Below, piece by piece: positions 1 through 3,902 of a DNA stretch of 38,574 bases. This DNA comes from Anaerolineales bacterium (GTDB taxonomy: Bacteria; Chloroflexota; Anaerolineae; Anaerolineales; Villigracilaceae). Every line of letters starts with the position of its first letter. The stretch's first letter is position 1. The stretch is taken from positions 1-38,574 of the forward strand of contig JAGUZU010000114.1 of the NCBI GenBank assembly GCA_020060625.1, read 5' to 3'. The position numbers were made by a program, and so were the translations under genes. The notes beneath the pieces are model-generated. The model saw nothing but the letters and a program-made list of their open reading frames with translations. It did not search any database and was not told where the DNA came from.

Positions 1-25
1 GCGCGGCAAGCCGCAGCCAAAGTAA

Positions 26-44
26 GTCGGATTGGCAATCCGAC
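26..44. repeat. short intergenic palindrome
   Basis: Perfect 8-bp inverted repeat gtcggatt / aatccgac around a 3-base loop, followed by ctac. It has the same build as the hairpins at 3319-3341 and 3362-3380 (8-10 bp arms, 3-base loop, gta or ctac at the edge). This looks like a family of dispersed intergenic palindromes rather than a terminator, since no T-run follows on either strand. Confidence 0.6.
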
Positions 45-91
45 CTACGCGCAAAATCTTCGCGGTAGGCGTAGTTTTTACAGAGCAATAC

Positions 92-97
92 TATAAT
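92..97 (+). promoter_or_regulatory. possible -10 box of the STAND ATPase unit
   Basis: A perfect TATAAT lies 99 bases upstream of the chosen start codon at 197. No good -35 hexamer is found 16-18 bp upstream and there is no TG extension, so this is only a candidate. If used, the mRNA would have a leader of roughly 95 nt containing the hairpin at 162-195. Confidence 0.35.
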
Positions 98-196: not shown

Positions 197-2809
197 ATGA
201 GTCGACAAATCACGCCCGAACGGGTGAACGTGAAGATTCGAGGCGATGTCAGCGGGCAGATCGCCATCGGAAACAATATTTTGCAGATCGGGGAAATTCA
301 CGGCGGGATCGTCAACATCATCGCGCCCGAAAAAAAGCCCGTCTTCACAAAACGGGATCAACCAGTTCTTATCCGACCGCGCGACCTGCCCGGGTTCATT
401 GACCGGGAGCGGGAGCAGGTCGCGGCGATCAAGGCGCTGGCGGTTTCGGAATCGCTGTCCGTTTTCGGCGAGGGAGGCATCGGCAAGACTGCCCTCCTCC
501 GCCATCTGGCATACCGCTCGCCCGGCGACAGTTTCCCCGATGGGATTATCTTTCTCTCCGCGCGGGGATACGCGCTCGACGACCTGCGCCAGTATATCTT
601 CGAATCGTTCTACGAAAGCGACAGCCGCGCGAAACCCACAGAAGCCGAACTGCGCCGCTCGCTGCAAGGGCTGAGGGCGCTCGTCCTGCTGGACGATCTT
701 GTTCTCGACTACAGCAGCGCCTCGGAACTCGTCAACAGCGCGCCGCAATGCTCTTTTATCTTCGCTTCGGTTGAACGTTGTTTATGGGGGGAGGGGGTCT
801 GCGTCGAATTGGGCGGGCTGTCGCTCGAGGATTCAGTCAACCTGTTCGAGCGCGAATTGAGGCGTCCGCTCGATGTGAAGGAAAGAACCGTCGCGCAGAA
901 CTTTTGCCGGGCGGTGGACGGGCATCCGCTTTACATCTTGCAAGGGGCGGCGTTGGCGCTTCGCGGGCATCCATTCACCGGCATCACGGGCGAGTCCGAA
1001 GAGGCGTTCGTAAAAAATATCCTCTCGAAACTGACACCTTCCCAACGGCAAGTCGTCAGCCTTTTGGCGGCTGCGGGCAACGCGCCCATGCCAGCGCAAC
1101 ACATAAAAGGATTGCTCCCCGGAACAAAAATCGAAGATGCGATTCGGGCTTTGCTCGACCTCAAATTGATACAGGCGCACAGCCCCGCCTACAACCTCGC
1201 CGGAACATTCGCCTCGACGCTCGAACGAACGACGGACCTCCGCGATTGGAGCGGACGGCTTCACGGCTATTTCATCGGCTGGCTCAAACAAAACCCGCCC
1301 CTGCCCGATGTTACAGACGCCCTCGACGTCCTGCTCAACCTGCTCGAAAAATCCAACCGCGATCACCGCTGGGACGATGTGATCGCCATCGGCAGGGGTA
1401 TCGAAAAAGCGCTCATCCTCGGCAAGCGGTGGTCTGCATGGGCGCGGGTGTTGGAGATGATTCTCAAAGCGGCGGAAGCCGTCGGCAACCGCGCCGCGCA
1501 AGGCTGGGTGCTTCATCAACTCGGCACGCGCGAACTCTGCATCAACAATCTCGACCCTGCGCGGCAATTCCTCACACAAGCCTTGAAGATACGCGAAGCG
1601 TTGAACGACAAAGCCGGAGCCGCCGTGACCCGCCATAATTTGAACCTGATCATTGCGCCGCCCGCCCCGCCGCGCGAAACGCCTCGTTCGGGACCCAAGC
1701 CTGGTTCAAAAGGCGGAGCCTCTCCCGTGCTGAAAACGTTTTTCGCGCTCGTTACGATCTCGGTCATTGCGTTCATCGCTATCCAAATCCTTCCAGACCT
1801 GTTCCCGCCTCAACCACCCGAGGAGGTTCACCCCGCGCAAGTTGCAACTACAAAGCCAAAGCCTGCCGCGCCTCCCCAAAAAACACCGACTCGAACCCCG
1901 ACAAAGACCATCACGCCTTCGCCCACCCTGCCCCCATGCCGCGCAGGGATTTGGTATTGTGAAGATTTCGACGATGGCAAAGCGCAGTTCTGGGAACTCG
2001 AATCGGGTTGGTCCATCCAAAATTACGTACTCAACGGCAAAGGTCATCGCTTTGCCATATTGACCGATCACGAATGGAGCGACTACCGCGTTAACTACCA
2101 TTTGAATATCATTTCAGGAACCATCCACTTGAACTACCGTCTCTCCTCCGGGAACAACGGGTTTTACCGATATTTCATCGGCGTTGACGAAAACGGCGTC
2201 AGCCTCAGCCGGCAGAACAACGACAGGTTTACCCCGCTTACCTACCAGAGCTTCTACATCCAGCGGGGCAACTGGCATGCCGTCGAAATTTACGGCTGGG
2301 GCGGGCATATCCAAATTTACCTGGATGATGAATTGGTGATCGAATATGTGGATGAGAATTACATCTCGAGCGGCACAATTGCCTTTGAAACGCTGGACAA
2401 CTCCAGCGCGCAAATTGACAACATCGAAGTGACAGGGGCAGGCGACGAACCGCCTGTGTATGTGCAACCCGTTGCGCCGCCTGAATACGTCCCGCCTGCT
2501 GAAAACCCGCCGAGCGGACCCGTCAGCATCATCACGCCTGAGCCTCTTCCAGTCACCTGCACCACCACTTTCATGACATGGGAGGAACTCACCGACCGCC
2601 CCGGCATGGATTATTGGAGCGGCACGCACACCGGCGGCATAGACAGTGTCGCCATTACCGCCTCGAAGTGCCAGCAAATGTGCCTGCAAGACTCCGCCTG
2701 CAAGGCATTTACATACGATACCTATATCAACCAATGCTGGCTGAAGAACGGACAGCCGGACCCGGTCTATAAATATCAGGATATTTCAGGCATAAAGGTC
2801 TGCCAGTGA
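197..2809 (+). CDS. membrane-anchored STAND/NB-ARC ATPase with concanavalin-like and PAN/apple ectodomain
   Basis: Predicted 870-residue signalling ATPase. The frame is open from 32, but AGGAGG at 181-186 places the start at 197. Order of parts: motif GDVSGQIAIGNNI (16-28), shared with the next gene; NB-ARC-type ATPase with Walker A GEGGIGKT (91-98), Walker B LVLLDD (162-167) and a GHPL motif (242-245); winged-helix-like segment (~280-340); TPR-like helices (~380-485); basic and proline-rich stretch; one membrane span (~514-536); Pro/Thr-rich linker; concanavalin/LamG-like beta domain (~588-746); C-terminal PAN/apple-like domain with six cysteines (788, 825, 829, 835, 847, 869). The N-terminal part would be cytoplasmic and the C-terminal part outside. 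STAND proteins switch on by nucleotide-dependent oligomerisation after ligand sensing; an outside sensor here is inference. The neighbouring gene, 17 bases away, is the likely partner. Confidence 0.85.
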   Translation: MSRQITPERVNVKIRGDVSGQIAIGNNILQIGEIHGGIVNIIAPEKKPVFTKRDQPVLIRPRDLPGFIDREREQVAAIKALAVSESLSVFGEGGIGKTALLRHLAYRSPGDSFPDGIIFLSARGYALDDLRQYIFESFYESDSRAKPTEAELRRSLQGLRALVLLDDLVLDYSSASELVNSAPQCSFIFASVERCLWGEGVCVELGGLSLEDSVNLFERELRRPLDVKERTVAQNFCRAVDGHPLYILQGAALALRGHPFTGITGESEEAFVKNILSKLTPSQRQVVSLLAAAGNAPMPAQHIKGLLPGTKIEDAIRALLDLKLIQAHSPAYNLAGTFASTLERTTDLRDWSGRLHGYFIGWLKQNPPLPDVTDALDVLLNLLEKSNRDHRWDDVIAIGRGIEKALILGKRWSAWARVLEMILKAAEAVGNRAAQGWVLHQLGTRELCINNLDPARQFLTQALKIREALNDKAGAAVTRHNLNLIIAPPAPPRETPRSGPKPGSKGGASPVLKTFFALVTISVIAFIAIQILPDLFPPQPPEEVHPAQVATTKPKPAAPPQKTPTRTPTKTITPSPTLPPCRAGIWYCEDFDDGKAQFWELESGWSIQNYVLNGKGHRFAILTDHEWSDYRVNYHLNIISGTIHLNYRLSSGNNGFYRYFIGVDENGVSLSRQNNDRFTPLTYQSFYIQRGNWHAVEIYGWGGHIQIYLDDELVIEYVDENYISSGTIAFETLDNSSAQIDNIEVTGAGDEPPVYVQPVAPPEYVPPAENPPSGPVSIITPEPLPVTCTTTFMTWEELTDRPGMDYWSGTHTGGIDSVAITASKCQQMCLQDSACKAFTYDTYINQCWLKNGQPDPVYKYQDISGIKVCQ

Positions 2810-2826: not shown

Positions 2827-3279
2827 ATGGCTCGGAAAACAAAACCAAAACAGGCGCCCGCGCAAGGCTCCATTGAAGTCAATTTGACGGGAAACGTCGG
2901 TGGACAGGTGGCGGTAGGCTCGAACATTCAGCAGACGCAGAATATCTCAAAAGGCTTGTCCGCTTTGAGCGAAGAGGATCGGGCGTTATTATCCGCTTTG
3001 ATCGCGGAATTCATGCAAAAGGTCAGGGGAGAGGCGCCGGAGGAGCAAAAGGATGAGGCGCTGGAGAAAGCGTCCGAATTGGAGCAAGCCATCACGGCGG
3101 AGGAGCCGAACGTCTCCACGATGGAACATGTCAAGGATTGGTTCGTGAAGAATATCCCCGCTCTTGCCGGCACAGTGACCGGGTTGATCGTCAACCCCAT
3201 CGTCGGCAAACTGGTGGAAGCCGCCGGGGAAACGGTGGCACACGAGTTCAAACTGCGCTTTGGCTCTGCCGGCGGCTGA
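2827..3279 (+). CDS. small protein sharing the STAND N-terminal motif, hydrophobic C-terminus
   Basis: 150 residues, no recognised full-length family. It starts 17 bases after the ATPase stop, with AAAGGA at 2812-2817 as ribosome binding site, so the two form an operon. Residues 22-34 (TGNVGGQVAVGSN region) match the ATPase motif at 16-28: G-x-V-x-G-Q-x-A-x-G-x-N-I. Residues 45-95 are predicted helical and rich in Glu/Lys/Leu; residues 108-132 form a glycine-containing hydrophobic segment interrupted by Asn-Pro, which could insert in or lie on a membrane. The shared motif suggests a homotypic contact with the ATPase, making this a candidate adaptor or membrane effector. That role is inferred; no catalytic motif is visible. 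Confidence 0.75.
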   Translation: MARKTKPKQAPAQGSIEVNLTGNVGGQVAVGSNIQQTQNISKGLSALSEEDRALLSALIAEFMQKVRGEAPEEQKDEALEKASELEQAITAEEPNVSTMEHVKDWFVKNIPALAGTVTGLIVNPIVGKLVEAAGETVAHEFKLRFGSAGG

Positions 3280-3485: not shown

Positions 3486-3902
3486 TCAGCGGCGGGACCA
3501 AACGACTCCCAGCCAGTCCGTCAGGGTGTCGGTGGAGGAATCGTAGGTGTAGGTAAACAGGTAGTTTCCGGCATGGGTGGGAGGCGAGGTTTGGCAGTAA
3601 ACATCGAGGTAACCCGAAAGAGCGCTCCCTGAAGCCGAGAGCGTACCGCGGGCAGATGCGGCGGAGAGAAAATCGCCCGTATCGGGGTCGAGCCCGCAGA
3701 TGGTGGCGCCGTCGTCGTAATAGCGGACATGACGGGTCCCACCGCCTCCGCCGCCGATATTCAGGGTTTGACTGCTGCCGTCAATATCGATGGACGTCCA
3801 AACGCCGATGAAAGGATCGGGCTTTGCGCTTGCGGGGGATGCAATGAGGATGGCGATCAACAACACGGCTGTGACAAGGGAGGGTAAAAGGTGTTTTTTC
3901 AT
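3486..3902 (-). CDS. small secreted protein, unknown function
   Basis: 138 residues. The N-terminus is a classical signal peptide: MKKH, a hydrophobic core of about 16 residues, then ASA as a likely signal peptidase I site near residue 26. The mature part is rich in Gly, Ser, Thr and aromatic residues, contains a GGGGGG run and two cysteines that could form a disulfide, and looks beta-rich. No family is recognised. Ribosome binding site AAAGGAG lies about 10 bases upstream of the ATG. A strong terminator follows, so it is likely a single-gene transcript. It is divergent from the membrane protein gene at 4211. Confidence 0.75.
   Translation of the reverse strand: MKKHLLPSLVTAVLLIAILIASPASAKPDPFIGVWTSIDIDGSSQTLNIGGGGGGTRHVRYYDDGATICGLDPDTGDFLSAASARGTLSASGSALSGYLDVYCQTSPPTHAGNYLFTYTYDSSTDTLTDWLGVVWSRR

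Follow-up and report, generated by a model that had tools for sequence, protein, structure and literature searches.

Our analysis of a 38,574-nucleotide stretch of an Anaerolineales genome (contig JAGUZU010000114.1; hereafter the window) describes a two-gene unit in which an NLR-type ATPase that crosses the membrane, a bacterial relative of the immune ATPases of plants and animals, is followed by a small protein carrying a copy of its N-terminal RHIM-like motif. The unit belongs to a family of modular receptors with partners matched to them, which we take for a variant of the NLR amyloid signalosomes. From its N-terminus, domain analysis resolves the receptor into the RHIM-like motif, NB-ARC, TPR-like helices, a span, a stalk, a LamG-like domain and a PAN domain (Table 1). 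This order, the single span, the inside/outside bias, the exchange of outer heads, the common motif and the pairing of the genes come directly out of the computation, and the topology of the receptor and the gene pairing are well supported. The motif common to the receptor and the next gene further suggests that recognition outside the cell can switch on an effector inside it. We give about even chances to the reading that the two genes form a receptor–effector unit, in which the ATPase oligomer of a surface receptor nucleates an amyloid-like signal to the effector. Somewhat more tentatively, we propose for the family as a whole, in Chloroflexota, Cyanobacteriota, Actinomycetota and others, that exchangeable ectodomains drive an NLR-type ATPase which signals through a RHIM-like amyloid to a cognate killer, be it a small helical protein, a caspase, a CHAT or a Bell-like protein. 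The initial annotation of the window had claimed an NLR-like ATPase wired to an outside sensor; that architecture is borne out, while the N-terminal motif and the partner gene had been overlooked, and the claim of a modular family with matched partners is the larger one.

Table 1. Features of the receptor and partner genes, by position in the window
Feature	Position	Strand	Basis and remarks
Receptor gene	197..2809	+	870 aa; ATG at 197 with GGAGG ahead; family in five phyla; full orthologue in G330
RHIM-like motif, residues 10-45	224..331	+	Common to the receptor family; two matches in own genome, here and in the next gene
NB-ARC-type ATPase, residues 46-285	332..1051	+	Walker A G91-T98; Walker B around D166
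Winged helix and TPR-like helical region, residues 286-490	1052..1666	+	TPR_12 below cut-off; GPSM2 TPR match
Single membrane span, residues 514-532	1736..1792	+	Mean hydropathy 2.45 (19-residue windows); charge +3 on the N-terminal side, -3 on the C-terminal side
Pro/Thr-rich stalk, residues 539-580	1811..1936	+	Sequence; 46% identity in G330
LamG/concanavalin-like domain, residues 581-749	1937..2443	+	Pfam under cut-off; profile match; relatives in exported-looking proteins
PAN/apple domain, residues 786-870	2552..2806	+	Above Pfam cut-offs; six cysteines; 65.5% identity in G330
Partner gene	2827..3279	+	150 aa; motif and five predicted helices; begins 17 bases past the receptor stop
Motif copy in partner	2872..2940	+	E 0.0124 with a profile built without the partner gene; E 1.8e-4 in another search

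Architecture and topology of the receptor

The initial annotation had placed the span and the outer modules at 1736-2809, correctly, as residue 514, counted from the ATG at 197, begins at base 1736. A longer reading frame from a TTG at 32 was rejected; this codon sits inside a dispersed repeat. The repeat, of about 95 bases (window 1-96), recurs at 97-100% identity in seven other loci examined and as a head-to-tail double copy in L003 and L008; its translation matches 84 places in the own genome, including the receptor itself and at least one unrelated ATPase, and because many copies lie at contig ends it probably breaks the assembly. In the inner part of the protein, the NB-ARC model PF00931 scores 23.3 bits, 0.2 below its curated cut-off of 23.5. 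In the alignment of the receptor core (19 sequences, 38 invariant columns), G94, G96 and K97 of the Walker A stretch GEGGIGKT are invariant and D166 nearly so, so that the Walker signature of an NB-ARC ATPase is present. Similarly, TPR_12 reaches 21.9 bits, under its cut-off of 30.1, and the region matches GPSM2 chains at E 6e-5. A PADLOC search covering Avs, CARD-NLR and others gave no known-system match for the receptor (best E 0.007).

Residues 514-532 constitute the receptor's only span, since all 19-residue windows above 1.3 start at 506-521. One span (at about 514-536) after the helical repeats, followed by a Pro/Thr-rich linker, is also what the initial annotation had described, and both hydropathy and the positive-inside charge agree with a single-pass receptor whose C-terminus is outside. 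Among 53 distinct family rows, the flanking charge is more positive before the span in 31 and after it in 8, with 14 ties (binomial p 1.5e-4), and a clear span with at least 100 residues after it occurs in 38, versus none of 25 other NB-ARC proteins from related genomes (Fisher p 2e-10, or 8e-7 against the 14 complete controls), all of these p-values being rough because the family rows are related to one another. The controls came from 30 loci, five of them without a usable frame, and 11 of the 25 scored run off their sequence stretch; the family table leaves out L100 (frame broken) and the truncated L101, L136 and L147, and its 54 rows are 53 distinct ones because uL024 duplicates L115. The receptor of L047/L100 has its frame broken some 106 codons in. 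A span of hydropathy 1.75 or more lies behind the TPR region in 40 of the 53 rows; the other 13, which count against a surface receptor, have a weak span, 12 of them being from Nostocales and the last being L146.

Beyond the stalk, the claim of a PAN/apple domain is confirmed by two Pfam models above their cut-offs (PF00024, 31.0 bits against 21.4; PF14295, 30.6 against 27) and by six cysteines at residues 788, 825, 829, 835, 847 and 869; the nearest solved relative is microneme protein 4 (4a5v, E 1.4e-5). The claim of a lectin-like domain fared less evenly. A profile of the domain and five relatives matches the lectin-like domain of levanase (4b1l) at E 9.6e-7 over profile positions 16-153 of 165 and, over shorter stretches, neurexin at E 2.4e-8, but PF06439 gives 21.8 bits, below its cut-off of 26.8. 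The single-sequence AF2 model of this domain is all-beta with 13 strands at a low-confidence pLDDT of 40.6, and the assignment of the fold therefore rests on the sequence profiles.

The relatives of these domains also bear on which side of the membrane they lie. Among six distinct proteins with relatives of the LamG-like domain, four have by eye a start resembling a signal or lipoprotein peptide (L062, L030, L033 and, on the plus strand, L063), L034 has membrane spans ahead of the domain, and L032 is a fragment. The PAN fold depends on disulphides, and since all six cysteines are kept in the orthologue in G330, a position outside is supported for this domain as well. Four lines thus agree, namely the charge bias, the exported-looking relatives, the PAN cysteines and the exchange of the outer part described below, in supporting the orientation proposed by the initial annotation, with the ATPase predicted inside and the binding modules outside.

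The orthologue in G330, which belongs to the same taxonomic family but to a different genus, is full-length, carries both the LamG-like and the PAN domain, and is likewise followed by the partner gene. Because it keeps both outer domains, their arrangement is not a chance one. Identity between the two proteins is 58% in the motif, 56% in the ATPase, 55% in the helical region, 49% in the span region, 54% in the LamG-like domain and 46% in the linker, with 54% between the partners. With pN/pS at 0.32-0.60 across the domains (LamG-like 0.42, PAN 0.32; synonymous sites near or beyond saturation), purifying selection acts on every domain in this one pair, and it is about as firm on the outer domains as on the ATPase.

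Family distribution and exchange of the outer part

A search of 101 genomes with the receptor gave matches in 66 at E ≤0.001, many of them partial; by our own count, 19 of the 101, besides the receptor's own, have a match reaching from the motif or the ATPase to at least residue 569. A genome scan with one conserved peptide pattern yielded the 53 loci of the family set, which lie in five phyla: Chloroflexota, Cyanobacteriota (mostly Nostocales), Actinomycetota, one Armatimonadota and one Eremiobacterota.

The outer parts of these receptors are diverse in kind. When twenty were scanned with Pfam, 13 gave a match at E ≤0.001, and 12 of these passed the cut-off. The matches comprise FGE-sulfatase heads (L098, L140), ASH/HYDIN-like Ig heads, some with cadherin-like or HYR domains (L108, L110, L111, L126), LysM heads (L056, L138), a beta-helix (L124), a PD40 propeller (L142) and others (L105, L118, and L103 below the cut-off). 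The FGE-sulfatase fold is often varied by diversity-generating retroelements. The remaining seven gave no Pfam match (L097, L099, L120, L130, L132, L057 and L059); among these, L099 represents several related heads without a Pfam name. In the tree of the core, one fully supported clade of six close rows combines the FGE head of L098, another unmatched head in L097 and four unnamed heads of the L099 type. In these comparisons the family keeps its ATPase core and swaps the part beyond the span among close relatives.

This exchange weighs on a reading in which the outer domains merely anchor the ATPase in the envelope while the TPR-like region senses inside the cell. Some heads are indeed of wall- or surface-binding kinds, such as the LysM heads, and of all sensor-like parts the TPR-like region shows the most regular conservation; yet sensors usually vary, and a tether would not need to be swapped for FGE, cadherin/Ig, beta-helix or propeller domains. 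We consider a mere tether quite improbable, and favor a surface receptor in which the outer part would act as the ligand sensor. Whole-ectodomain exchange on a kept core, beside matched effectors, would make this a modular system, the ectodomains of which could be used to seek ligands.

The partner gene and the shared motif

The motif at receptor residues 10-45 (GDVSGQIAIGNNILQIG...) is common to the receptor family, and in the own genome its profile gives just two matches at E ≤0.1, in the receptor and in the adjoining partner. In the structural model of the partner (mean pLDDT 67), residues 1-41 are mostly below pLDDT 50 and are followed by the five helices; a fold search gave no PDB match at E ≤0.001. 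When 400 genomes of the window's phylum were searched with a profile of the partner, three proved to have it, each time directly downstream of a receptor; the neighbor scan adds two Nostoc genomes, Kribbella and a further actinomycete in which a receptor is followed by the small partner (G275 and L103 are one contig). Small motif-bearing proteins in related genomes match TCAD2 (PF19971), such as L086 with 32.3 bits against a cut-off of 27, whereas the window's partner gave no Pfam match to it at E ≤1 and was not recovered by a profile built from the TCAD2-like small proteins; a profile comparison between the partner and the TCAD2-like motif proteins (E 5.5e-5, probability 66) points to a distant resemblance. 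Behind the partner, on the minus strand, lies a secreted-looking protein of 138 aa (window 3486-3902), for which neither Pfam nor PADLOC nor the curated NCBIfam models gave a match. We rejected a defence island around the receptor, since a scan of ten further genes showed a housekeeping character, with one gene lacking a match.

Elsewhere in the family the place of the small protein is taken by others. A motif-bearing neighbor is found at 12 of the 53 loci. Nine are listed by the motif profile at E ≤0.015 (L126, L119, L118, L122, L141, L138, L103, L110 and L111) and three are recognized otherwise: those of L105 (E 0.17) and L130 (E 0.23) by their resemblance to the caspases and small proteins at other loci, and that of L129, absent from the profile listing, by eye. 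In L105, L118, L119 and L122 the next gene encodes a caspase-like protein that bears the motif on its C-terminal side (Pfam-tested in L105 and L118); in L129 the partner is a CHAT and TRADD-N protein with the motif; and by eye a Bell-like protein with the motif lies directly upstream in L138 and about 0.8 kb upstream in L141, the libraries searched holding no Bell model. On the tree, the small partner accounts for three label changes, and caspase and Bell for one each. The other 41 loci, some of them at contig ends, have no motif-bearing neighbor, which counts against the receptor–effector reading, and none was found beside 23 further relatives outside the 53 loci.

Where the genes are paired, their motifs appear matched. 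In a comparison of hand-chosen stretches, receptor and partner motifs are closer within pairs than between them in a test on 11 pairs (0 of 20,000 permutations), and likewise without L129 and L105 (4 of 20,000, nine pairs); inside the six small-partner pairs the test is not significant (p 0.15). Where no neighbor is seen, partners in trans are possible, because motif-bearing frames occur elsewhere in the genomes of the genus. Fourteen of 37 such genomes have the receptor, and a further motif-bearing frame is present in 10 of these 14 versus 4 of the 23 without it (p 0.0016; our own counts from the table, which include other STAND ATPases and not necessarily partners). Twenty of these further places were examined. 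Eight encode TIR proteins (L077, L080, L081, L083, L085, L089, L091 and L093; L077 and L091 Pfam-tested), which bear the motif on the C-terminal side and are unlinked to a receptor in the stretches examined; others are STAND ATPases with an N-terminal motif (L082 and L088 tested), TCAD2-type small proteins (the Pfam-tested L086) and some that we take to be Roc-COR-like. The matches in L079 and L087 may be chance. One frame (L090, in G015, 1771-2772) encodes a short membrane protein in which the motif is directly followed by a span, a stalk and a beta-type head, with no ATPase; it is possibly a short co-receptor or decoy.

The nature of the motif admits a second reading, which leaves the surface receptor as it is and takes the motif for an ordinary homotypic adaptor, comparable to the effector-associated domains (EADs) found in conflict systems, and not an amyloid, that would recruit the partner stoichiometrically after oligomerization. 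Likeness to the published BASS3 peptides is weak, as these score 7.8 and 3.8 bits against the motif profile, slightly above shuffles (28 and 22 of 2000 as good), and the family motif of about 35 residues is longer than the published 21-residue BASS3 peptide; adaptors of the EAD type are described for STAND systems in the available text of PMC10907252 and PMC7159879. On the other hand, the partner's segment is short, Gly/Asn/Val-rich and predicted to be unstructured, and the motif occurs at either end of unrelated effectors, as is known for amyloid signaling motifs. We judge such an adaptor somewhat unlikely and retain the amyloid-like seed as the preferred reading.

Proposed mechanism and relation to known systems

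STAND ATPases oligomerize when activated. We hypothesize that the receptor resides in the cytoplasmic membrane, with the LamG-like and PAN domains outside and the ATPase inside, and that binding of a ligand outside, perhaps a glycan or a protein, would be signaled through the single span so as to cluster or release the NB-ARC/TPR part. The latter would then exchange nucleotide and oligomerize in the manner of STAND ATPases, gathering the RHIM-like N-terminal motifs into a small amyloid-like seed that could template the motif copy of the partner. Through its helical domain, which has a moderately hydrophobic stretch, the partner might act on the membrane, although its best 19-residue hydropathy of 1.54 is under the usual limit for a span and counts against such an action. 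In some relatives a caspase, CHAT or Bell-like protein would take the place of the small partner. We infer that the outcome is likely cell death or arrest, as a defence or in non-self recognition.

A role outside defence, with the receptor serving development, kin recognition or the sensing of envelope state and the partner being regulatory, would fit the rest of the window, which is housekeeping (by reading, ribonucleotide reductase and NrdR; ribosomal protein L2; SecY). It would also fit the nearest NCBIfam models of the receptor, AfsR and a TPR protein of RiPP biosynthesis, neither of which comes near its cut-off, the many filamentous hosts, and the viral contigs, where 71 stretches fit the pattern of the family and none was confirmed. 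Against it stand the caspase and CHAT partners in sister branches, the TIR proteins that bear the motif, and the weak PADLOC matches of the partner to PDC-M14B, a candidate family of defence proteins (E 9e-5), which cover no more than a part of the model. We regard a role of this kind as unlikely, and favor a receptor with an effector that would induce death or arrest; at 150 aa, the partner has a convenient size for testing toxicity and amyloid formation.

NLR-type ATPases are generally regarded as sensors that work inside the cell, STAND proteins usually sensing through TPR, LRR or WD40 repeats. A bacterial family with an outside sensor would mean that the same switch has been coupled to the cell surface too, which a few NLRs of animals also show, and it bears on what bacterial amyloid signaling responds to. 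In the available text of PMC7889193, PMC8086366, PMC7885112, PMC8195603, PMC10907252, PMC7159879, PMC12261475 and PMC13133943, and in a wider literature search that covered sources other than bioRxiv preprints, we found no description of the receptor family; the nearest are PMC10907252 and PMC13133943.

As far as the available text of PMC7889193 and PMC8086366 goes, the signal of NLRs in fungi and, by prediction, in bacteria travels as an amyloid seed to the effector of the neighboring gene. The BASS signalosomes described there, including the RHIM-like BASS3, likewise pair an NLR-type ATPase, which has a short motif at its N-terminus, with the protein of the adjoining gene, in which this motif recurs, and their partners include Bell, CHAT and TIR proteins. 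In contrast, the receptor described here crosses the membrane and has exchangeable outer domains, and its putative effector in the window is a small helical protein of another kind, which bears the motif at its N-terminus and not at the C-terminus of a Bell domain; caspase partners occur in its relatives. Similarly, the STAND/NACHT proteins with DGR-diversified C-type lectins join a STAND ATPase to C-terminal ligand-binding domains, and one NACHT/C-type-lectin DGR target is predicted to reach the periplasm, while FGE-type heads also occur in the receptor family. Unlike it, they use NACHT or nSTAND1 instead of NB-ARC/TPR and EAD adaptors instead of this motif, and the available text describes no constant core combined with diverse outer domains (PMC10907252). 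The membrane-associated GAP1-N2 conflict systems also have NTPases in which wall-binding or cadherin domains come after a C-terminal span, but these are GTPases of another family, and the term RHIM is absent from that paper (PMC7159879). The layout recurs in the transmembrane NLRs of the sea cucumber, in which an outside recognition domain is linked through a span to a STAND-type ATPase inside; AjNLRC4, however, is an animal NACHT protein with an Ig domain, for which the accessible text describes no motif-bearing partner (PMC13133943), and its likeness to the bacterial receptor is likely convergent. If our reading is true, the position of a Toll-like receptor, the switch of an NLR and the output of the necrosome would come together in one protein pair.
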